Source of the DNA: Planctomycetota bacterium
Lineage (GTDB): Bacteria > Planctomycetota > SZUA-567 > H5-PLA8
Length of the DNA stretch: 33,968 nucleotides
Assembly: GCA_026692735.1 (NCBI GenBank)
Contig: JAPLOD010000001.1
Location: 1 to 33,968 of the forward strand
Direction: 5' to 3'
Every line of letters begins with the position of its first letter. Position 1 is the stretch's first letter. Of the stretch, positions 1,599 to 28,518 are shown piece by piece. Made by a program: the position numbers and the translations under genes. Under the pieces are notes generated by a model. It saw only the letters and a program-made list of their open reading frames with translations, had not been told where the DNA came from and did no database searches.

Positions 1599-2306
1599 TC
1601 AGCTTCCGCCAGCAGCGCCACCCGTGCGGATCACGCCGTCCAGGTCGCGGGTGAAGTCGCCCTGCTCGCCCTGCAGGCTGTAGATATCGTTGTCAATGAG
1701 GTCCGTGCCGTCCGCGCCCTTGCCCATGCGGTTCTTGGGGCTATCGCGGAACTCGACCGTGCCCGCGCCGATCAAGACGTTGCCGCCTTGGTTCTCACCA
1801 TGGTTGTCGGACATGGTGCTGCCCGCCGCGCCCTTCTTGTCGGCGGCGACGGCGGTCACGGCGCTGTTGATGCTATGACCGGGGTCATAGGCATAGCCAA
1901 TATTGGCTAACTTCATCTTCGCGCCGGCGTCCTGCAGCTTTCCATTAGCGACGGGCAGGATCTCCATCAGCGCCGCACCCGCGACAGGCTTGGATGGACA
2001 GGAAAACGCCCGTACGTCCTGGATGTAACCTCTGTACAGCAGGTTCACGTCCGCTATCGGGTCACTGGATGCGAACGGGTCCCCGGTGGCCGACGACGTC
2101 GGGAAGTAACCGCCGTTCCCCGGCTGGTCCGCGTACATGTACATAGCCTTGGCCATCTGGCTCAGGTTGGCCGCGCAGGACGTGCGCCGGGCCGCTTCCC
2201 GCGCACGGGCCAGCACCGGAAGGATCAGCCCTGCCAGGATAGCGATGATGGCAATTACCACCAGAAGCTCGATCAGAGTGAACCCTGGATTCCGGCCCCC
2301 CTTCAT
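1599..2306 (-). CDS. Type II secretion/type IV pilin-like prepilin (major-pseudopilin style), paralog 1
   Basis: [66 protein letters not shown] prepilin cleavage motif; strong SD AAAGGAGG upstream of ATG at 2306. The longer ORF start (2531) would translate repeat DNA. Confidence 0.9.
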
Positions 2307-2353
2307 CGCCTGCCTCCTTTCCCCTTGCCTGTAACCCACTCTACGAAGTGCAG

Positions 2354-2395
2354 TACCCCGCTGTTTGGCGCTTTTCGCAGGAAAAGCGGGGCTAC
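2354..2395. repeat. Intergenic hairpin with alternative stems
   Basis: CGCTTTTC-GCAG-GAAAAGCG (2369-2388); competing outer pairing CCCCGCT (2356-2362) with AGCGGGG. Confidence 0.6.
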
Positions 2396-2403
2396 CGCCT
2401 CTA

Positions 2404-2483
2404 CCACAGAGCACACAAAGGACACAGAGAGAACACGAGGTAGATCCAGCCGTGATCCTGTGTGCGCTCTGCGACCTCTGTGG
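2404..2483. repeat. Inverted nonamer array element B
   Basis: Left arm CCACAGAGC ACACAAAGG ACACAGAGA GAACACGAG (2404-2439); right arm CCTGTGTGC GCTCTGCGA CCTCTGTGG (2457-2483), which reads CCACAGAGG TCGCAGAGC GCACACAGG on the other strand. Confidence 0.75.
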
Positions 2484-2533
2484 CAGAAACCCGCTAACGT
2501 CGCTACAGTCTCGGAGAACCCAGTCGGCCAAAA

Positions 2534-2563
2534 AAACGCCCTCCGTCTTGCGGGAGGGCGTTT
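2534..2563 (-). terminator. Intrinsic terminator copy 2, directly downstream of prepilin paralog 2
   Basis: Stem AAACGCCCTCC / GGAGGGCGTTT, loop GTCTTGCG, followed on the minus strand by seven T residues. Confidence 0.85.
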
Positions 2564-2587
2564 GGCCCGAAAGCTCTCCGGTCGCTG

Positions 2588-3289
2588 TTAGCTTCCAGCA
2601 GCGCCACCCGTGCGGATCACGCCGTCCATGTCGCGGGTGAAGTCGCCCTGCTCGCCCTGGAGGCTGTAGATATCATTGTCAATGAGATCCGTGCCGTCCG
2701 AGCCCTTGCCCATGCGGTTCTTGGGGCTATCGCGGAACTCGACCGTGCCCGCGCCGATCAAGACGTTTCCGCCTTGGTTATCACCATGGTTGTCGGACAC
2801 GGTGCTGCCCGCCGCGCCCTTCTTGTCGGCAGCGATGGCCGACACGGCATTATTCGGCCCGTGGCCAGGGTCATAGCCATAGCCAATATTGGCTAACTTC
2901 ATCTTCGCGCCGGCGTCCTGCAGCTTCCCATCCTTGACGGGCAGGATCTCCATCAGCGCGGAGCCCGACACAGGCTTGGACGGACACGAGAAGACTCTCA
3001 CGTCCATAATGTAGCCCCTGTACAGCAGGTTCAGGTCTGCCATCGGGTCACTGGATGCATACGGATCGGACGTGGATGAGGTGGTGGGGAAACAGCCGTT
3101 CGCCGGCACGTCCGCATACATGTACATGGCCTTGGCCATCTGGTTCAGATTGCTGGCACACGATGTCCGACGGGCCGCCTCGCGCGCGCGAGCCAGCACT
3201 GGAAGGATCAACCCTGCCAGAATTGCGATGATGGCGATAACCACCAGCAACTCGATCAACGTGAATCCGTGCTTCTTCGCTCGGATCAT
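2588..3289 (-). CDS. Prepilin paralog 2
   Basis: [69 protein letters not shown] upstream of ATG at 3289; near-identical to paralog 1 at both ends. Confidence 0.9.
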
Positions 3290-3486
3290 CCCACACCTCC
3301 TCACAGGTAGCTGCTTCTACGCGCACAGTGCGCGAAGCCACAATTCCTTGTCTAAGACCCGAGAGGGAACGCCCCTCTGAATCTAGTCCTCTGCATCCCT
3401 CGTGCTCACCCTAGGCATGACTACGAAAGATTGTTGTAGACGGTTTGCTGCTTTTTCCAAGAAACTTTTCCACGAATCCCCAGGAC

Positions 3487-3845: not shown

Positions 3846-4085
3846 TTAGCCATGGATGGCGTGCCGGTAGAGGTTAAGTCCCGCGTAACGCGGTTTGCGC
3901 AGCTTCATTGCACCGACCACGCGCCGGGCTTCGAGGCAACTCTCAATGGCGTCAACCGCGTTTCTGTAAGCTTCCTGCAGGGACTTGCCGGAAGCTATAC
4001 ATCCCGGAATGGCCGGAACCTGTGCGGTGAAATATCCATCCTCATCCTGAAAATAATCAATCTCGAACTCCCGATGCTTCTTCAT
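3846..4085 (-). CDS. hicB: HicB-family antitoxin-like protein
   Basis: MKKHREFEIDYFQDEDGYFTAQVPAIPGCIASGKSLQEAYRNAVDAIESCLEARRVVG: typical HicB fold sequence (GYF-A-VP-IPGC---G-S--EA--NA-DAIE-CLE). The ORF track merged it into a 659-aa antisense ORF. Confidence 0.8.
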   Translation of the reverse strand: MKKHREFEIDYFQDEDGYFTAQVPAIPGCIASGKSLQEAYRNAVDAIESCLEARRVVGAMKLRKPRYAGLNLYRHAIHG

Positions 4086-20008: not shown

Positions 20009-20068
20009 CAGCGTGCGACGCTGTCATCCCTCCGGTTTGGGAAGCCGGAAGACACGGGTTCTAACCCG
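20009..20068. repeat. Cluster of three consecutive hairpins
   Basis: CAGCGT-GCG-ACGCTG; TCCGGTTT-GGG-AAGCCGGA (one G-T wobble); CGGGTT-CT-AACCCG. Confidence 0.7.
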
Positions 20069-20807
20069 CAATGTCCCTTGGGCTTGCAGCGCCCTCCAGA
20101 ATCCTGTGGCGGTTCCTTGGCAGCGCAGACTTCGCTCCATTGCCCGATACTGCGTCATCGCCACATAACCCGCGATGCCTCACGGAACCCTTCACTTCTC
20201 TCGTTGCGTTGGTGTCGCTGTACGAGAGCATGACGGCATTCAAGGGCACGGCCGTGACGAGCATGGAGAGCATGTGCCTCTCTCCGGGGCGGCAGGCGGC
20301 CGTGAGCTCTGTCTCGCCGGCGGGGAACCGCAGATCACCGACCTTCCGGCCATCCACGAACACCTCGGCGATGGAGTTCAGATATTCTGCGGAGAGGGCA
20401 CCGCGGCGGCCGGCCCATTCCGCGGGAACAGTGATCTCTCGCTGATACCAGGCCATCGTCACGGCGCCGAGATTCGCAGCCTTCCAACTCGGATGAACGT
20501 AAAGGGTCTGGCAGTCCTTCTGCATGTAGTCGCCACAACCCGGCCATGAGCCGGGGACCTTGAAATAGCCCCATTCGTCCTGGGGCGGCGCCGTTGTACC
20601 CTTCTTGGCCGGCTGCCAGCGCCAGAGGCCATTGAGGCAAACGCGTTCGCGCGTCGGTGTGGTCTCGCGATACGCCTTGGCTGGATCCCAGACTGCCTTC
20701 ACTCCGGGAGGCAGCACCCCTTCAGCTTGGGCGAAGCAGAGACCCGTCAGGAGAATCAGACCCACCAACGCGACCGCCATGTGCAGGACCACTCGTTGGA
20801 TAGCCAT
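20061..20807 (-). pseudogene. Glycoside hydrolase family 2-like N-terminal sugar-binding domain, truncated
   Basis: Signal peptide, then CLNGLWRWQPA ... WGYFKVPGSWPG ... YQREITVPAEWAGRRGALSAEYLNSIAEVFVDGRKVG ... REVKGSVRHRGLCGD, after which the sequence becomes unrelated and stops; the catalytic barrel is missing. Confidence 0.7.
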
Positions 20808-20892: not shown

Positions 20893-20920
20893 AGCTTACA
20901 CGAACAAGCTGGGCCGTCAA
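20893..20920 (-). promoter_or_regulatory. Shared promoter/operator upstream of the GH2 fragment
   Basis: Minus strand TTGACG-GCCCAGCTTGTTCG-TGTAAGCT. Confidence 0.65.
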
Positions 20921-20984
20921 GATACAAGCGTCACGTTTTCCGATCCTCGCCTTCTATATGCGAGTCTGGACGCTGCCTTCGTAC

Positions 20985-22025
20985 TCAGCTCCTGGCTGGA
21001 TGCGTACTGCTCGATTCACGAGTCACGAGTGACGGCACGAGGATAAGCCTCTTGGTGGTGGTGGGCGCAGGCTCTCCAGCCAGACCTCGCCGGACCACAT
21101 CAAAGGCCGCTTCAGCCATGGCTTCATAGGGCTGCTGAATGGTGGAAAGAGACGGCGTGGTATAACGCCCCAACGGCAGCCCATCAAAGCCCACTACCTT
21201 GATGCGCTGCGGGCACGGAATCCCCGATTGGTGAAGGGCGTGGAGCACGCCTACGGCGATCATATCACCCATGGCGAAGACGGCATCGGGCACCAGCCGC
21301 AGGTTCCGCCACTCCTCTACCGCCGCAATGCCGGCCTGATACTGATCCTCTGTCCCTTGCCGGTAGTAGACGTGTGCGGCGCAGTCCTTGAAATCCTTTA
21401 AGGCGGCCGCGCAACCGTCCAGCCGCTCTTGCACGAAGGGGTAATCCCGCCGATCGGCAACAACTCCAATCCGTTGCGCCCCGGCTTCGCAGAGGTGCCG
21501 GATGGCCAACTGAGCGCCAGCCACGTTGTCCACCTCAACACAGGGGACATCCGTATCGCTGAACTGTCTCCCCACCACACAGGCAGGCTTGCCCAGCAGT
21601 TGGCCGGAGTTCCCGGGCGGCAGCTTGGATGCTGACGGCAGATGTAAAAAGATTCCCTCCGCAAAGCCCAGTTCCATGGCCCGGAGGTCTTCCAGCGCGG
21701 ACGCTGGATGTATGGACAGTTCCATCACGAAAAGGCCGAAGCCGCTTTTCTGCGTGACGCGGCTAAGGGCACGGAAGAGTTCTGTCGTGTGGTGATCCGT
21801 CAAATCTTCGCTGACGAGTGCCAGCAGGTTGCTCTTCTGTATCTTCAACGCACGCCCAAACACACTTGGACGATATCCGAGTTTCGCGGCCGCCTCCCTC
21901 ACGCGCTCCGCGGTCTGCGGCGGGATCCGATTCTGAGCTGCTTTGTTGTTGAGCACGTAGCTCACCAAGGCCTCCGAGACGCCCGCATGCTCAGCTACGT
22001 CTCTTCGTCTGACCTTTGGCACCAT
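20985..22025 (-). CDS. LacI-family transcriptional regulator
   Basis: MVPKVRRRDVAEHAGVSEALVSYVLNNKAAQNRIPPQTAERVREAAAKLGYRPS (LacI HTH and hinge) and periplasmic-binding-like domain VVGFDGLPLGRYTTPSLSTIQQP. Confidence 0.93.
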   Translation of the reverse strand: MVPKVRRRDVAEHAGVSEALVSYVLNNKAAQNRIPPQTAERVREAAAKLGYRPSVFGRALKIQKSNLLALVSEDLTDHHTTELFRALSRVTQKSGFGLFVMELSIHPASALEDLRAMELGFAEGIFLHLPSASKLPPGNSGQLLGKPACVVGRQFSDTDVPCVEVDNVAGAQLAIRHLCEAGAQRIGVVADRRDYPFVQERLDGCAAALKDFKDCAAHVYYRQGTEDQYQAGIAAVEEWRNLRLVPDAVFAMGDMIAVGVLHALHQSGIPCPQRIKVVGFDGLPLGRYTTPSLSTIQQPYEAMAEAAFDVVRRGLAGEPAPTTTKRLILVPSLVTRESSSTHPARS

Positions 22026-22124
22026 GGATAGGCCTCCGCCATAATCCCGCCTGCATGCGGTATCGGCTGCTGGAGGGAGCTTCGTGGAATCCTTGAACCC
22101 GTTCACTCCGGAAGCCATTGTCTG

Positions 22125-22154
22125 ATCATAGCTTACACGATCATGGGATGTCAA
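22125..22154 (-). promoter_or_regulatory. Shared promoter/operator upstream of the LacI gene (possible autoregulation)
   Basis: Minus strand TTGACA-TCCCATGATCG-TGTAAGCTATGAT; TATGAT lies 18 bp from TTGACA, so the shared motif sits in the spacer. Confidence 0.6.
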
Positions 22155-22246
22155 GGTCTTTCCGCACGCAGAGCGCTCCCTCGTTGCCAACCTGCAAGAT
22201 CCATGTTCAGACTCATGCTTGAATCGCAGATCATGGACATAGAAGC

Positions 22247-22276
22247 TTGACAGGGGGCGACTTTCTCGTGTAAGCT
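22247..22276 (+). promoter_or_regulatory. Shared promoter/operator upstream of the transglutaminase-like gene
   Basis: TTGACA-GGGGGCGACTTTCTCG-TGTAAGCT. Confidence 0.65.
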
Positions 22277-22375
22277 TATTCCGTTTGTTCAGAGTTCCAG
22301 TCGAGGAGTCATCCGCCGCTAGGCGCCTTCATCGAGGCGATGCTTCTCGAAGGACGCGAAGGCAAGGGGCTAAGG

Positions 22376-24946
22376 ATGGTGGAAACCGGACGTTTGGGTT
22401 TGGCCGCGGGGCTGCTGGTGTTGCTCATGGCCGCGTCAGGCGTCTGTCAGGACGGCGACCTGCGTCCGTGGGCAGAGAACACTCATCCAAGCGATGCGCG
22501 CAAGGAGCACAAGGAGGAGATCAGTTCCGGCAAGCATGAATACCGAATCGTCCAGGGCGGGACGATGGATGGGCGAAGCTGCCGGACGCCGATGGGGTGC
22601 GGAATCGCACGGGAAGGGGCGTTCTACCAGACGTGGGAGTCGAACCGCTCGGTGCGGATGGAAAACGTGGGCGAGACGGACGTGGTCAACCCCTGGATTT
22701 CCAACGGCCGCAACAATTTTCGGACCGTGGATGCGATTGTGAACTCGGCGCTGACGCCGGGGATGACGGACGCGGAGAAGGCGTTTGCGATATGGTTTCA
22801 GGAGATTCAGTACCGGCACCATGCCCCAGGGGACAACAACGAGCTGGGCGACCCCGTGAAAATGTTCAACATCTACGGATACAACACGTGCGGAAATGAC
22901 TCGATCTGCATGGGAACGTTGTGGAAGGCAGTGGGGCTGAAGGCCGCGCCGGCGCGGGCGCTGGGGCACTGCATCTCGCAGGTGTTCTACGACAACGCAT
23001 GGCATTTCTACGACGGCGATATGCACTGCGTGTACCTGCTGAGGGACAACCAGACAGCGGCGGGCGAGCAGGACATCGTGCGGGACCACGACCTGGTGAA
23101 GCGGACGCACTCGCAGGGGATCCTCTTTCCAGACACTTGGTGGCAGGGCCAGGGAATGCCCGCGATGTATTTCTACGTGGAAGCGGTGACGGGAGAACGG
23201 TCAGGGAAAGCCGACACGACGATGAACCTGGTCCTGCGCCCGGGAGAGGCGATCGTATGGCGATGGGGGCAGGCGGCCCCGATGAAATATCACGGGGCGC
23301 TACAGACGGTGCCCACATACGAACGGGTGCCCTACGTCATCTGCAACGGCCTGTGGGAGTATCGCCCGGACTTTACCAAGGAGACGTGGCTCAAAGGAGC
23401 GAAGGTGGAGAACGTTACCGCAGGCCCGCAGGGCCTGACGGCGGAGGAAGGGAAGACTGGGACGATTGTGTGGACGATGAGCAGCCCGTACGTCTTCGTG
23501 GGAGGACGGCTCGAGACGGAGGGTACAGGGGCGAAGTTCTTCGTAAGCCAGGACGGCAAGACCTGGAGGCCCGCGGGGAACAACCTGGACGGGTTCTTCT
23601 CGATCGTGGGGCCGGCGTGGTATGGGTATCAACTCAAGTGCCAGTTCGAGGCCGGTGCGCAGCTAAAGAGAGTGGCGATCGTCAACGACGTGCAGATGGC
23701 GCCGATGGCACTGCCGGAGATGGTCGTGGGCGAGAATGTATTCACCTACAGCGACCAGACTCCCGGGGAGCGGAAGGTGAGGATTACGCACAACTGGGTG
23801 GAGCGGTCGGCTTCGAAGCCGCCGCCGGCGCCGCCCGCGGCGGTCTATCCGCCGGACGGCGGGGACAGCAATGGGACGGACATTGTGTTCCAGTGGACGG
23901 CGCCGGAGGTCCCGGACGGGGGAGGGATTGGGGACTACCAGTTCGAGCTGTCAAGGCGACCGGATATGAAGCTGCCGCTTTCGATGGACTTCTACAAGCT
24001 GATCTCGCGGACGGGTGACGCGAGTGTTGTGAAGGGCAAGGACGGCAACATCGCGAGTGCCAAGGTCAAGAGCCAATACACACTGCCCCTGCCAGGCATG
24101 TTGACGCCCGACCAGACGTACTACTGGCACGTGCGCGCGATGAACGACAAAGGGGTATGGGGTCCGTGGAGCAAGACATGGAGCTTCACCGCGCGGGGAG
24201 TGGCGTGTCCGGTGGAGGTGATGGTGGACTACGATCAGGCCAAGGGAGTGGGGACGCTCAAGTGGAAAGCCAACCCGGCAGGTAAGCGGCCGGCGAAGTA
24301 CCGAGTGTACGGCAGCGACGAGAAGGGCTTCACGATCTCCGACCAGAGGTTCCAGAGCACGGTGGGGGTGACCAAGGAGGAGATGGCGGCCTGGAACCCC
24401 TGGTTCCCGGCGAACTTCATCGCCGAGACAACAGCCGCGGATCTGGCTGTGTTGGGCTGCGAAGTCAACTTGCCCGCAGCGAACAAGACCTACTACCGCG
24501 TGGTGGCGGTGGACGAGCAGGGCAAGCGCAGCGGTCCGTCCGACTACGCGACCGGCCCCCGGCCCATTGTCTACAGCAAGCCCGAGGTGGCAGTCAAGGT
24601 GGGCGCCGAGTACCACTATCGTGTCTGTGCCAATCGCTCCCTGGGAGACCTCAGCGCACGGATGAAGGGCAACGATCAGGTCAGCGGCTACTTTGATATC
24701 GAGAAGCCCCAGTTTACCCTCTCCGAAGGGCCAAAGTGGCTGAGGATTGACGCGGCGACCGGCCTGTTGTCCGGAACCCCGGATGCGCCCGGCAAGTTCC
24801 AGGTCGTAGTGTCGGTAACGCTGGAGAGGCCTGTGCGGAAGGTGGATGAAGGCGCATTGAAATGGGGTGCGCTCAAGGTCAACGCTACCAGCATCGAGAC
24901 GCTGGAACCAGCAACCCAGAAATTCGTCATCGCGGTGGGCGGATGA
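22376..24946 (+). CDS. Secreted transglutaminase-like protein with FnIII-like and putative Ig domains
   Basis: Signal peptide MVETGRLGLAAGLLVLLMAASGVCQ; GYNTCGNDSICMGTLWKAVGLKAAPARALGHCISQVFYDNAWHFYDGDMH (Cys/His/Asp arrangement); PKWLRIDAATGLLSGTPDAPGKFQVVVSVT (putative Ig type). Confidence 0.75.
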   Translation: MVETGRLGLAAGLLVLLMAASGVCQDGDLRPWAENTHPSDARKEHKEEISSGKHEYRIVQGGTMDGRSCRTPMGCGIAREGAFYQTWESNRSVRMENVGETDVVNPWISNGRNNFRTVDAIVNSALTPGMTDAEKAFAIWFQEIQYRHHAPGDNNELGDPVKMFNIYGYNTCGNDSICMGTLWKAVGLKAAPARALGHCISQVFYDNAWHFYDGDMHCVYLLRDNQTAAGEQDIVRDHDLVKRTHSQGILFPDTWWQGQGMPAMYFYVEAVTGERSGKADTTMNLVLRPGEAIVWRWGQAAPMKYHGALQTVPTYERVPYVICNGLWEYRPDFTKETWLKGAKVENVTAGPQGLTAEEGKTGTIVWTMSSPYVFVGGRLETEGTGAKFFVSQDGKTWRPAGNNLDGFFSIVGPAWYGYQLKCQFEAGAQLKRVAIVNDVQMAPMALPEMVVGENVFTYSDQTPGERKVRITHNWVERSASKPPPAPPAAVYPPDGGDSNGTDIVFQWTAPEVPDGGGIGDYQFELSRRPDMKLPLSMDFYKLISRTGDASVVKGKDGNIASAKVKSQYTLPLPGMLTPDQTYYWHVRAMNDKGVWGPWSKTWSFTARGVACPVEVMVDYDQAKGVGTLKWKANPAGKRPAKYRVYGSDEKGFTISDQRFQSTVGVTKEEMAAWNPWFPANFIAETTAADLAVLGCEVNLPAANKTYYRVVAVDEQGKRSGPSDYATGPRPIVYSKPEVAVKVGAEYHYRVCANRSLGDLSARMKGNDQVSGYFDIEKPQFTLSEGPKWLRIDAATGLLSGTPDAPGKFQVVVSVTLERPVRKVDEGALKWGALKVNATSIETLEPATQKFVIAVGG

Positions 24947-25083
24947 CGCCATGGTTGGTGACCGACAACGAGAAGGGCGCCGTGAAGGTCATTCGGGAGG
25001 CTGTGGGTTGCTAAACCTTCACCGCGTGACTCTTTCATTCACAACACCTCGCCGGTTCAGCCCGGCGCACAGGAGAGACAACG

Positions 25084-26076
25084 ATGCCTGCCAGCGGATC
25101 CGCTTCCTCATGCAGCCTCGAGTCCGCATTTCAGCCAGGACACGTCATCCTGGATTACAGGGACCTTGCGTACAATCCCTGCAATGACCTGATCTTCCCG
25201 AGCATTTTCAAGGCCGAAGGATATCTCTCAAGACCCGCGGACGCCTACTACCTGTATTATGCCCCCCACGATACCCCGGGCGGAATCTGCCTGGCCTACG
25301 CCCGCTCTATAGAAGGACCGTGGAAGGAGCACGCCGGCAACCCCATCATCCGGAAAGACTGGGCGCCGCATTACCACGTGGGACACGTATCCGCGCCGCA
25401 CGCGATCTGGGTGCCCGAGGAGTCCCAGTTGTTCGTGTTCTACCACGGCGACAACGACCAGACGCATTACGCAGTCTCGAAGGACGGCCTCGGTTTCAAC
25501 TATGGAGGCGTGGCGCTCGACCAGACGGCCTATGCGGACTTCGCCAAGGGAACCTACGACCGTGTCTTCTACGGCCGCGTCTTCGCGCATCGTATCCCCT
25601 CAAAGGGCAGCAGGTATGTCATGCTGTTCGCCCGCGAGAGCAACCAGGGCCCGCACAAGCACGGGATCTACCTTTCCTGGTCGAAGAACGCCCGCGACTG
25701 GAGCCAACCCATCCGCATCATCCAGCCTGCCGGCGGGGCCAGGTTCGTGTGCTCTCCGTGTTTGTTTGCCTTGCAGGGCAGGTACTACGTGGCCTACCAC
25801 GCGGAGTTCGGCAACGCCGAGGCCGGTTCTCCAGCCTATACCGATATCTGGCTGGATGAGTTCGATGCGGAATTCGCCACTCGCAAGCCGCTGGGCAAGT
25901 TCGTGGACCATCGCCTGTTCGGGGAGGCGAACCCTCGGGTCAGCGACCCGCTTGTCATCATCGAGGGGGACGTGGCCTGCCTAGTGGTGGCGATCGGGAA
26001 ACGGCTCAATCAGCGCTTTGCCTTGGCAAAGGCGAATCTGAAGGATCTCCAGCGGGCGCTCATTGGACGGGTTTGA
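25084..26076 (+). CDS. GH43/GH32-like beta-propeller protein (putative glycosidase)
   Basis: YYLYYAPHDTPGGICLAYARSIEGPWKEHAGNPII ... HVSAPHAIWVPEESQLFVFYHGD; SD AGGAG before ATG. Confidence 0.7.
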   Translation: MPASGSASSCSLESAFQPGHVILDYRDLAYNPCNDLIFPSIFKAEGYLSRPADAYYLYYAPHDTPGGICLAYARSIEGPWKEHAGNPIIRKDWAPHYHVGHVSAPHAIWVPEESQLFVFYHGDNDQTHYAVSKDGLGFNYGGVALDQTAYADFAKGTYDRVFYGRVFAHRIPSKGSRYVMLFARESNQGPHKHGIYLSWSKNARDWSQPIRIIQPAGGARFVCSPCLFALQGRYYVAYHAEFGNAEAGSPAYTDIWLDEFDAEFATRKPLGKFVDHRLFGEANPRVSDPLVIIEGDVACLVVAIGKRLNQRFALAKANLKDLQRALIGRV

Positions 26077-27082
26077 CCTGCTCCCCCTTGATCCAGCGCT
26101 CGAACCAACGATACGCGAATTCGCAGGCGTCGGGCGGAATTCCGTGGCCGTCGCCGTGATTGAGAGTGCAGAAGCATTCGGGCTTGCCCAGGAGACCGTA
26201 CGCGCGCTGGCCGCTCAGGTAGACCTGGAAATTGGCCGCGAGAAATGGGTTGTACGGGTCGTTGAAGGGCTCGATGATCAGCAGCGGGCGCGGCGCAGCG
26301 AGGGCAATGATGTCCTGGTAGTCGTAGTGTATGCTCCCGCTGCGAACGTAGTCCGCCCACTTCGACATCCGCTGTGCCCCGGAGCGGTAGATGTTCGTGA
26401 TGTTGGGACTCACGCCGGTCGAAGGCACGCCCGCGCCGATCCTCTTGTCGAAAGCCGTCAGGAAGATAGCGGTCCGCCCCCCGAGCGAGTTGCCGATGAC
26501 CCCGTACGTCTTGGGTTGCACGAAGTCCAGAGTGTCCAGCACGTCCAGCAGCCGCTGATGATCCCATAGCCGCCGGCCATCCAAGGACCATTCCGGGTGA
26601 GTGTGCGCGAACTGCGCATTGGCCTCGTTCCAGCGCTTCTCGACCTCCGGGTAAGGGAGGTCCTCGCCGCGGGTCAGGAGTTCCCCGAAGATGTAGGTGT
26701 CCGGGGCGACCGCGACGAACCCGCGCTGGGCCAGGTCAATCGCGTAGCCGCGGAAATCCGCGGCCTCCCGCGTGAGGACGCTGTACTTGCCCTCCGCGCG
26801 GGCCGTTCCATGGCACACGACGACCGCGGGCGCGGGCCGTTGGGCGCTCACGCCTTCCGGCATCACCATCACGGCCAGACCGTACTCGTCCGGCAGGACG
26901 CGAAACCGGATCTTCAAATGCTTGAGCCCGTAGTTCTCATACTCCTTGACCACCTGCATCTCAGGCTCCACCTTCACTTGGGGCTGCGTGCCAATGCAGC
27001 CGGCGACTCGCTGGTGGATGCGGGCGCGGATGGCAGGCCATTCCTCGGGACGAGTATCCTGCAGCACTACGTCGCGAAACAT
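26060..27082 (-). CDS. Alpha/beta hydrolase (acetyl xylan esterase / dienelactone hydrolase-like)
   Basis: GVIGNSLGGRTAIFLTAFDKRIGAGVPSTG nucleophile elbow GNSLGG; PRPLLIIEPFNDP; C-terminal NHGDGHGIP; SD GGAGGGAG. Confidence 0.8.
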   Translation of the reverse strand: MFRDVVLQDTRPEEWPAIRARIHQRVAGCIGTQPQVKVEPEMQVVKEYENYGLKHLKIRFRVLPDEYGLAVMVMPEGVSAQRPAPAVVVCHGTARAEGKYSVLTREAADFRGYAIDLAQRGFVAVAPDTYIFGELLTRGEDLPYPEVEKRWNEANAQFAHTHPEWSLDGRRLWDHQRLLDVLDTLDFVQPKTYGVIGNSLGGRTAIFLTAFDKRIGAGVPSTGVSPNITNIYRSGAQRMSKWADYVRSGSIHYDYQDIIALAAPRPLLIIEPFNDPYNPFLAANFQVYLSGQRAYGLLGKPECFCTLNHGDGHGIPPDACEFAYRWFERWIKGEQVKPVQ

Positions 27083-27154
27083 GCTTGCTCCCTCCAGCGT
27101 GGAATCAGCGAGCGCCCCAGAGATCCTGAGTCCACCCCACCTCGTGTCGGATGT

Positions 27155-28042
27155 CTACACCTTTCGGCGTCGGCGGCGCGACTGCGGTACGGATTTGCGA
27201 TTCAGCCATGCATCGAGATGCCGCACGAGTCGGCCGAGCGTGCGGGCGAAGATCCTCGCCCCGCGTCGCGGGTCCGCGTCGCGGGGATCCTCTACAACGG
27301 CGACCGTCCCCGTGTGGCGCCGGCCGCGAAACGTGCCGTCATCCACGATCGCCCAGCGCAGGTTCTGCAGGGGCACTCCCCGCCGCGGCAGCGTGCGGAG
27401 GTCGGTGCATTCCGGATACCGGGCCATGAGCGTTTCGGTTTCCTCGCGTGTGGCATGGCCCCAATCGCCGCGCGGAAATCCCAGAGCGGGCATCACCATC
27501 GCAACCCTCACTTCGCCCCCGGCTTCATACTCCAGCCGCAGGCGGTTGATCACCGCCAGATGATTCTCTCCGCCATGGCCGTTGACAATCACGATGCGGC
27601 GGAACCCCCAGGAGCGATGGATCAGATCGAGCCAGCCGCGAAGCACCAGCCCGAACATCTCCTCTGAACAGTACAAGCTGCGCAGCCCGCAGGCCGGGAA
27701 ATCCATGCCGACGACGTACTCATCGCCCTTGAAGCCGATATGCCGCAGCATCGCGGGAGCGCGCTCCCGCTCTGTCCCCATGTAGAGTGTGGGCAGTGCC
27801 ACGCCTCCCATCACGCGGGCCAGTTCCACTGCGGCCATCTCGGCGCGCAGCGGGTCCACCCCCAAAGGCAAATGCGGGCCGTGCCACTCCAGCGGCCCGA
27901 GCGGCAGGAAGGCCAGACTGGTTCGCCGTCGGATGGCCAGAATCTGCTCGGGTCGGAGGAACTGGGCCTGCACATGCCCCGATTCCGTGGTGGCGGCGTC
28001 GGGGATCCGTCCTGGCCTGCTCGGATTTCGGCCGGTCCTCAT
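27155..28042 (-). CDS. Creatininase/creatinine amidohydrolase-family protein
   Basis: FLPLGPLEWHGPHLPLGVDPLRAEMAAVELA and IVIVNGHGGENHLAVI; SD AGGGGG precedes ATG at 28042 (ORF track gives 28066 as an alternative start). Confidence 0.88.
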   Translation of the reverse strand: MRTGRNPSRPGRIPDAATTESGHVQAQFLRPEQILAIRRRTSLAFLPLGPLEWHGPHLPLGVDPLRAEMAAVELARVMGGVALPTLYMGTERERAPAMLRHIGFKGDEYVVGMDFPACGLRSLYCSEEMFGLVLRGWLDLIHRSWGFRRIVIVNGHGGENHLAVINRLRLEYEAGGEVRVAMVMPALGFPRGDWGHATREETETLMARYPECTDLRTLPRRGVPLQNLRWAIVDDGTFRGRRHTGTVAVVEDPRDADPRRGARIFARTLGRLVRHLDAWLNRKSVPQSRRRRRKV

Positions 28043-28089
28043 GCGATTCCCCCTATCTTTCCTCAATCATCAATCAGCAGGAAGTGGTG

Positions 28090-28118
28090 AGCTTACACGA
28101 TGCGTGACCAATCGTCAA
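28090..28118 (-). promoter_or_regulatory. Shared promoter/operator upstream of the creatininase-esterase pair
   Basis: Minus strand TTGACG-ATTGGTCACGCATCG-TGTAAGCT. Confidence 0.65.
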
Positions 28119-28189
28119 GGATCCATATACGACGAGGTCAGAAGGGGAAGCAGACCTGTATTCCACGGCTTGGTGAGCAAGAGATCAGG

Positions 28190-28218
28190 TTGACGATCTT
28201 GGCTGATGCGTGTAAGCT
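28190..28218 (+). promoter_or_regulatory. Shared promoter/operator upstream of the amidohydrolase fragment
   Basis: TTGACG-ATCTTGGCTGATGCG-TGTAAGCT. Confidence 0.6.
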
Positions 28219-28285
28219 CGTCGAACCGAGCGCGCTCTTATTGCCCCTATTCTGGCGAGCGTGACTTGGAGGCGGGGTGCCTTCA

Positions 28286-28518
28286 TGCTGACATTCTTCG
28301 ACTGCAATTGCATGCTCGGAGGGCTCACGGCAGTGGGCTTGGCGCCGCGCAACGCCAGCGATCTCCTGCGCGAGATTGGCCACCACAATATCCCATCGGC
28401 AGCAGAGCCGCAACCAAACGGCCAGCCGACGGGGAGACAGAGGGAAGGAGGGACGGGGCGAGGTTGCAGGTCACAAGTTACAGGTTGCAGGCGTCATCCG
28501 GTTGTGGCGCGTCTGTAA
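28286..28518 (+). pseudogene. Amidohydrolase-like N-terminal fragment
   Basis: MLTFFDCNCMLGGLTAVGLAPRNASDLLREIGHHNI resembles an amidohydrolase/TIM-barrel start (FDCNxMLG ... LLREMxxxxI), then runs into low-complexity and repeat DNA. Confidence 0.5.
28431..28458 (+). other. Putative G-quadruplex sequence
   Basis: GGGG-AGACAGA-GGG-AAGGA-GGG-AC-GGGG. Confidence 0.5.

Follow-up and report, generated by a model that had tools for sequence, protein, structure and literature searches.

A probable local, autoregulated LacI-family regulon with five private promoter sites in a Planctomycetota genome

The 33,968-nucleotide contig JAPLOD010000001.1 of a Planctomycetota bacterium (assembly GCA_026692735.1; analysed as one whole contig and hereafter called the window) carries a gene cluster that is probably a local, autoregulated LacI-family regulon. 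The likely regulator, a 346-amino-acid LacI-family protein encoded at 20985..22025 on the minus strand, is predicted to bind five promoter sites sharing the motif CGTGTAAGCT, which together span 7.3 kb and precede five units: a GH2 gene fragment, the lacI gene itself, a transglutaminase-like plus GH43-like pair, a creatininase plus esterase pair, and an amidohydrolase fragment. An earlier note on this DNA had proposed a LacI regulon run by this same protein. That proposal is well supported, since the sites are private to the cluster, include the regulator's own promoter and match the half-site of homologous LacI genes, but the half-site polarity given with it is probably wrong.

The motif was found far more often in the window than expected, and always in the same promoter context. 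CGTGTAAGCT occurred five times, compared with 0.01 copies expected, and 0 of 100 shuffles reached five. The copies lie at 20893-20902 (-), 22130-22139 (-), 22267-22276 (+), 28090-28099 (-) and 28209-28218 (+), here numbered sites 1 to 5. Every copy is preceded by TTGACA (two sites) or TTGACG (three sites) and faces the nearest gene start, which confirms the observation of the earlier note. The gaps from TTGACR to TGTAAGCT were 14, 11, 16, 15 and 15 bases at sites 1 to 5, and TTGACR is best read as a -35 element. Similarity among the five sites was limited to the core and this element, and their flanks showed no homology. Position 3965 (+) has a sixth TGTAAGCT, which is not joined to a CG and fell outside the earlier count.

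The full arrangement is exclusive to this cluster. In the genome assembly (9.13 Mb, 1014 contigs), CGTGTAAGCT itself was found ten times, five of them in the window, compared with nine for a reversed-pattern control. The composite TTGACR-N11..16-TGTAAGC had five matches, all in the 7.3-kb cluster (control, two), and a single match in total across six same-family genomes. The earlier note had held that a motif common throughout the genome would count against a regulon; this exclusivity, together with the single match in six relatives, excludes a generic promoter motif. A looser pattern, TTGAC-N9..17-GTNTAAGC, gave one additional match elsewhere in the genome; we note that weaker sites outside the window were sought by such pattern searches only. 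The genome also encodes intact GH2 paralogues (contigs C679 and C102) and a 66% identical transglutaminase paralogue (C90). The remaining CGTGTAAGCT copies are on other contigs, none of them these, which suggests that the regulon is limited to one paralogue set.

By every tested feature, the protein at 20985..22025 is a member of the LacI family. It combines an N-terminal LacI helix-turn-helix (HTH) domain (PF00356, 1.5e-11) with a Peripla_BP_3 effector domain (PF13377, 4.5e-30). The HTH contains the recognition helix VSEALVSYVLN and the loop NKAAQNRI, and the hinge (...PSVFGRALKIQ) aligned with the ARSL/ARGL hinge both in homologues and in a relative of solved structure. The hinge-helix Leu, which inserts at the central CG, is present. 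This was the sole regulator found among the cluster genes, and its own promoter has a site.

Judged from their sequences, the predicted operators are 18-bp pseudo-palindromes with one invariant half. CG was present at 5/5 sites and the right half-site GTGTAAGCT was identical in 5/5, with a degenerate left half. Operator 1 (left half AGCTTGTTC; 20893..20910, minus strand) stands before the GH2 fragment, with TTGACG at 20915-20920. Operator 2 (CCCATGATC; 22130..22147, minus) occupies the lacI promoter, with TTGACA at 22149-22154 and a -10 element, TATGAT, at 22125-22130. Operator 3 (GACTTTCTC; 22259..22276, plus) precedes the transglutaminase-like/GH43 pair, with TTGACA at 22247-22252. Operator 4 (TCACGCATC; 28090..28107, minus) precedes the creatininase/esterase pair, with TTGACG at 28113-28118, and operator 5 (GGCTGATGC; 28201..28218, plus) precedes the amidohydrolase fragment, with TTGACG at 28190-28195. 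The CG of CGTGTAAGCT is probably the dyad centre, from which the half-site reads outward as GTGTAAGCT. The sites have the CG centre and the position of LacI operators but lack a strong palindrome, and when a dyad was sought de novo in these five sequences alone, none was significant (p=0.78).

The promoter layout is compatible with a repressor. At four sites TAAGCT could serve as a weak -10 element, 16-18 bp from TTGACR, in agreement with the earlier remark that several sites overlap a plausible -10. In the lacI promoter, TATGAT lies 18 bp from TTGACA and the predicted operator falls inside the spacer. Operators placed over the spacer and -10 region downstream of TTGACR are consistent with repression by promoter occlusion.

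The window half-site resembles the operators of homologous LacI genes. Three LacI relatives adjoining transglutaminase-like genes had clear palindromes directly upstream of their own genes, all CG-centred (half-sites TTGCGCACAC and GTGTGAGCAA; TTGCTCACTC and GATTGAGCAA; TGCGCACTC and GATTGAGCA), and the first of these includes GTGTGAGC, one base off the window's GTGTAAGC. More broadly, 37 of 97 LacI homologues from the phylum had, within 160 bp, a palindrome centred on CG and reaching 7/9 or better. Of the 15 homologues with an ungapped R-I loop, 13 had GC at positions 7-8 of the half-site, compared with 1 of 22 others (p=4e-7, Fisher). Within this RI class, G5 was found in 10 of 11 homologues with Arg at the aligned recognition-helix position and in 0 of 4 without it (p=0.004, Fisher). 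The window regulator has the ungapped R-I loop and a Tyr in place of that Arg, and GTGTAAGCT has GC at positions 7-8 and A at position 5, so both homologue-derived predictions (GC7-8 and non-G5) fit the window. A direct fit of the published Arg20/NT-6 rule to the RI-loop homologues failed.

Half-site matrices built solely from other genomes and then applied to the window gave a concordant picture. With a matrix from the 16 closest transcription factors (TFs) the five sites ranked 16-110 of 33,950 window positions, and with an RI-class matrix they ranked 31-246, which places all five within the top 0.75%. The CG of CGTGTAAGCT was the best of 31 axes by a margin of about 10 bits or more, and the left halves scored above chance (p=0.02). 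Since all five sites have the same right half, we interpret the matrix test as roughly one observation, at a level of about 1-2%, to which the left halves add.

Under the model that we favour, a dimeric form of the 20985..22025 regulator would bind the five CG-centred pseudo-palindromes and, lying over the spacer and -10 region, would exclude RNA polymerase. From the effector domain, which resembles sugar-binding proteins, we infer an inducer that would lift repression and derepress all five units; it is presumably a sugar or oligosaccharide freed by the target enzymes. The cluster has the make-up of a local regulon, with a site before the regulator gene and before its neighbours and 5/5 genome-wide composite matches local. 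From dyad centre to gene start, sites 1 to 5 lie 94, 113, 73, 56 (32 with a TTG start) and 76 bases upstream. Among 1303 LacI-TFs, 72% are autoregulated and most sites lie 30-140 bp upstream of starts (PMC4052901), so the predicted autoregulation and the 56-113 bp measured here (32 if the creatininase gene uses its alternative start) are what is usual in the LacI family.

Several points weigh against this model. The transglutaminase gene has orthologues, with identities of up to 80%, that occur without the cluster's LacI gene and without the motif, and a second copy of the regulon was not found among 54 loci with transglutaminase relatives. A search of GTDB contigs found no orthologue of the LacI gene, and among 61 relatives searched the best full-length identity to the regulator was about 30%; the sites have no phylogenetic footprint because no close LacI orthologue was found. 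Additionally, the Fisher tests above ignore kinship among homologues, and the homologue palindromes are best picks from many candidates.

One relative did carry the motif near a LacI gene. In genome G005, a LacI gene (L077:11877-12917) lies divergent from the transglutaminase orthologue and contains TCGTGTAAGCT inside codons 3-6; CGTGTAAGCT occurs twice in that genome, this copy included. We rejected it as a regulon site, as it is intragenic and the recognition helix of that LacI protein differs (Arg). The stretch includes a TTA codon, although the gene has high GC content at third codon positions. Repeated TTTGCCGGTTWA elements upstream of the same gene look like its own operators, a further reason for the rejection.

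Among other explanations for the five sites, the one that survives best, though we consider it unlikely, is binding by some other regulator, whose gene may lie on a different contig; an activator that recognises TTGAC-N-TGTAAGCT as one asymmetric or bipartite element would be an example. The asymmetry of the motif and the null result of the dyad test would suit such a protein, but a spacing that varies over 11-16 bp does not suit a rigid bipartite site, the operators of LacI homologues agree with both the right half and the axis, and every site clusters around the lacI gene. A second possibility keeps the LacI protein but has it bind TGTAAGC/GCTTACA half-sites centred just after TGTAAGC, as the earlier note had assumed. 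TGTAAGC does resemble the half-sites of some LacI-family operators, and operator 3 reads TGTAAGCTTA. However, this axis has no CG centre, a feature found in 1173/1303 LacI-TF motifs (PMC4052901), its second half is not conserved, and the half-site fraction under the homologue matrix was 0.14 for the reversed TGTAAGC reading compared with 0.019 for GTGTAAGCT. This placement of the half-site is probably wrong, and we give it very little weight.

Slightly less credible again is a promoter class for an alternative sigma factor, with TGTAAGCT as its -10 element. The TAAGCT hexamers at four sites would fit such a class, but the composite is missing from the rest of the 9.13-Mb genome, the spacing is not fixed as expected between -35 and -10 elements (11-16), the lacI promoter has a spacing of 13 bp alongside its separate TATGAT, and a -10 element needs less than an invariant 10-bp core. 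Repeat remnants or chance matches are scarcely credible, for while two truncated target genes mark the region as rearranged, homology is confined to the core and -35 and the five copies are oriented and promoter-placed, against the 0.01 expected.

The genes behind the five sites mostly kept the functions assigned to them earlier. The calls of a GH2 N-terminal fragment, a LacI regulator, a GH43-like protein, a creatininase and a glucuronoyl-esterase/dienelactone-hydrolase-like abhydrolase were all upheld. The GH2 gene (20061..20807, minus strand) is truncated and matches residues 26-222 of a 1367-amino-acid relative. The GH43-like gene lies at 25084..26076 (plus). The creatininase-family amidohydrolase gene (27155..28066, minus; likely ATG start at 28042) is followed downstream by that of the abhydrolase (26060..27082, minus). 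The GH43-like and esterase genes are convergent, and their 3' ends overlap by 17 bp (26060-26076). At 28285..28401 (plus) an N-terminal stub of 39 amino acids resembles a metal-dependent amidohydrolase and then gives way to unrelated sequence. Both outer targets, GH2 and the amidohydrolase, are cut short, yet their promoters retain a predicted operator, and the downstream junctions of both run into unrelated or repeat-like sequence. The truncation of these two of the five targets reflects recent decay, a rearrangement or an assembly join.

The transglutaminase-like call was only partly sustained. This secreted protein of 868 amino acids with Ig/Fn3-like domains (22340..24946, plus) gave no Pfam transglutaminase match at threshold, but it has an apparent Cys-His-Asp triad that does not vary among five orthologues. 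Its nearest named relatives are mostly Planctomycetota metagenome-assembled genomes. The family is widespread and highly conserved across the 54 loci, which come from Planctomycetota, Verrucomicrobia, Armatimonadetes, Elusimicrobia and one Bathyarchaeota bin, and its core carries no Pfam or NCBIfam name. Elsewhere in the window, two neighbouring near-duplicate pseudopilin-like genes, with prepilin N-terminal methylation, lie at 1599-3304.

Within the paper library searched, no LacI operators or regulons of Planctomycetota were found. With five sites, one regulator and zero background composites in 9 Mb, the locus is a clean, self-contained test case, and the homologue comparison suggests that the LacI recognition code may extend to a subgroup in which the HTH loop is longer. 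More tentatively, this RI-loop subgroup, which is frequent in Planctomycetota, may read GWKTNNGCW with an extra GC contact at positions 7-8, and a single strong half-site may suffice for the strongly asymmetric operators of the window member; we regard this as possible but doubtful.

Compared with known systems, the cluster is most likely an ordinary kind of gene switch, yet an unusually clean and self-contained one. By sequence, Escherichia coli PurR and RbsR and Bacillus CcpA belong to the nearest relatives of known structure, and they share the architecture of an HTH joined to a periplasmic-binding-protein domain. In contrast, CcpA and PurR are global regulators, the window regulon is local, and the half-sites differ. 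The LacI recognition code of Camas et al. 2010 (PMC2978694) likewise involves a hinge Leu, a CG centre and co-variation of helix residues with half-site bases, and that study also used autoregulation for site finding. However, the window protein has LVSY, outside the TVSR group, and the longer-loop ...RI relatives show GC7-8, and Arg with G5, not simply Arg20/NT-6. The local autoregulated LacI-family regulons of Ravcheev et al. 2014 (PMC4052901) differ from the window, where one half-site is strongly conserved and the other degenerate in 5/5 and no close orthologue of the regulator turned up in the genomes searched. The cluster nevertheless resembles those regulons in that its regulator gene lies among the targets and is predicted to be autoregulated, its sites fall 30-140 bp ahead of gene starts and have a CG centre, and its targets are carbohydrate-related.
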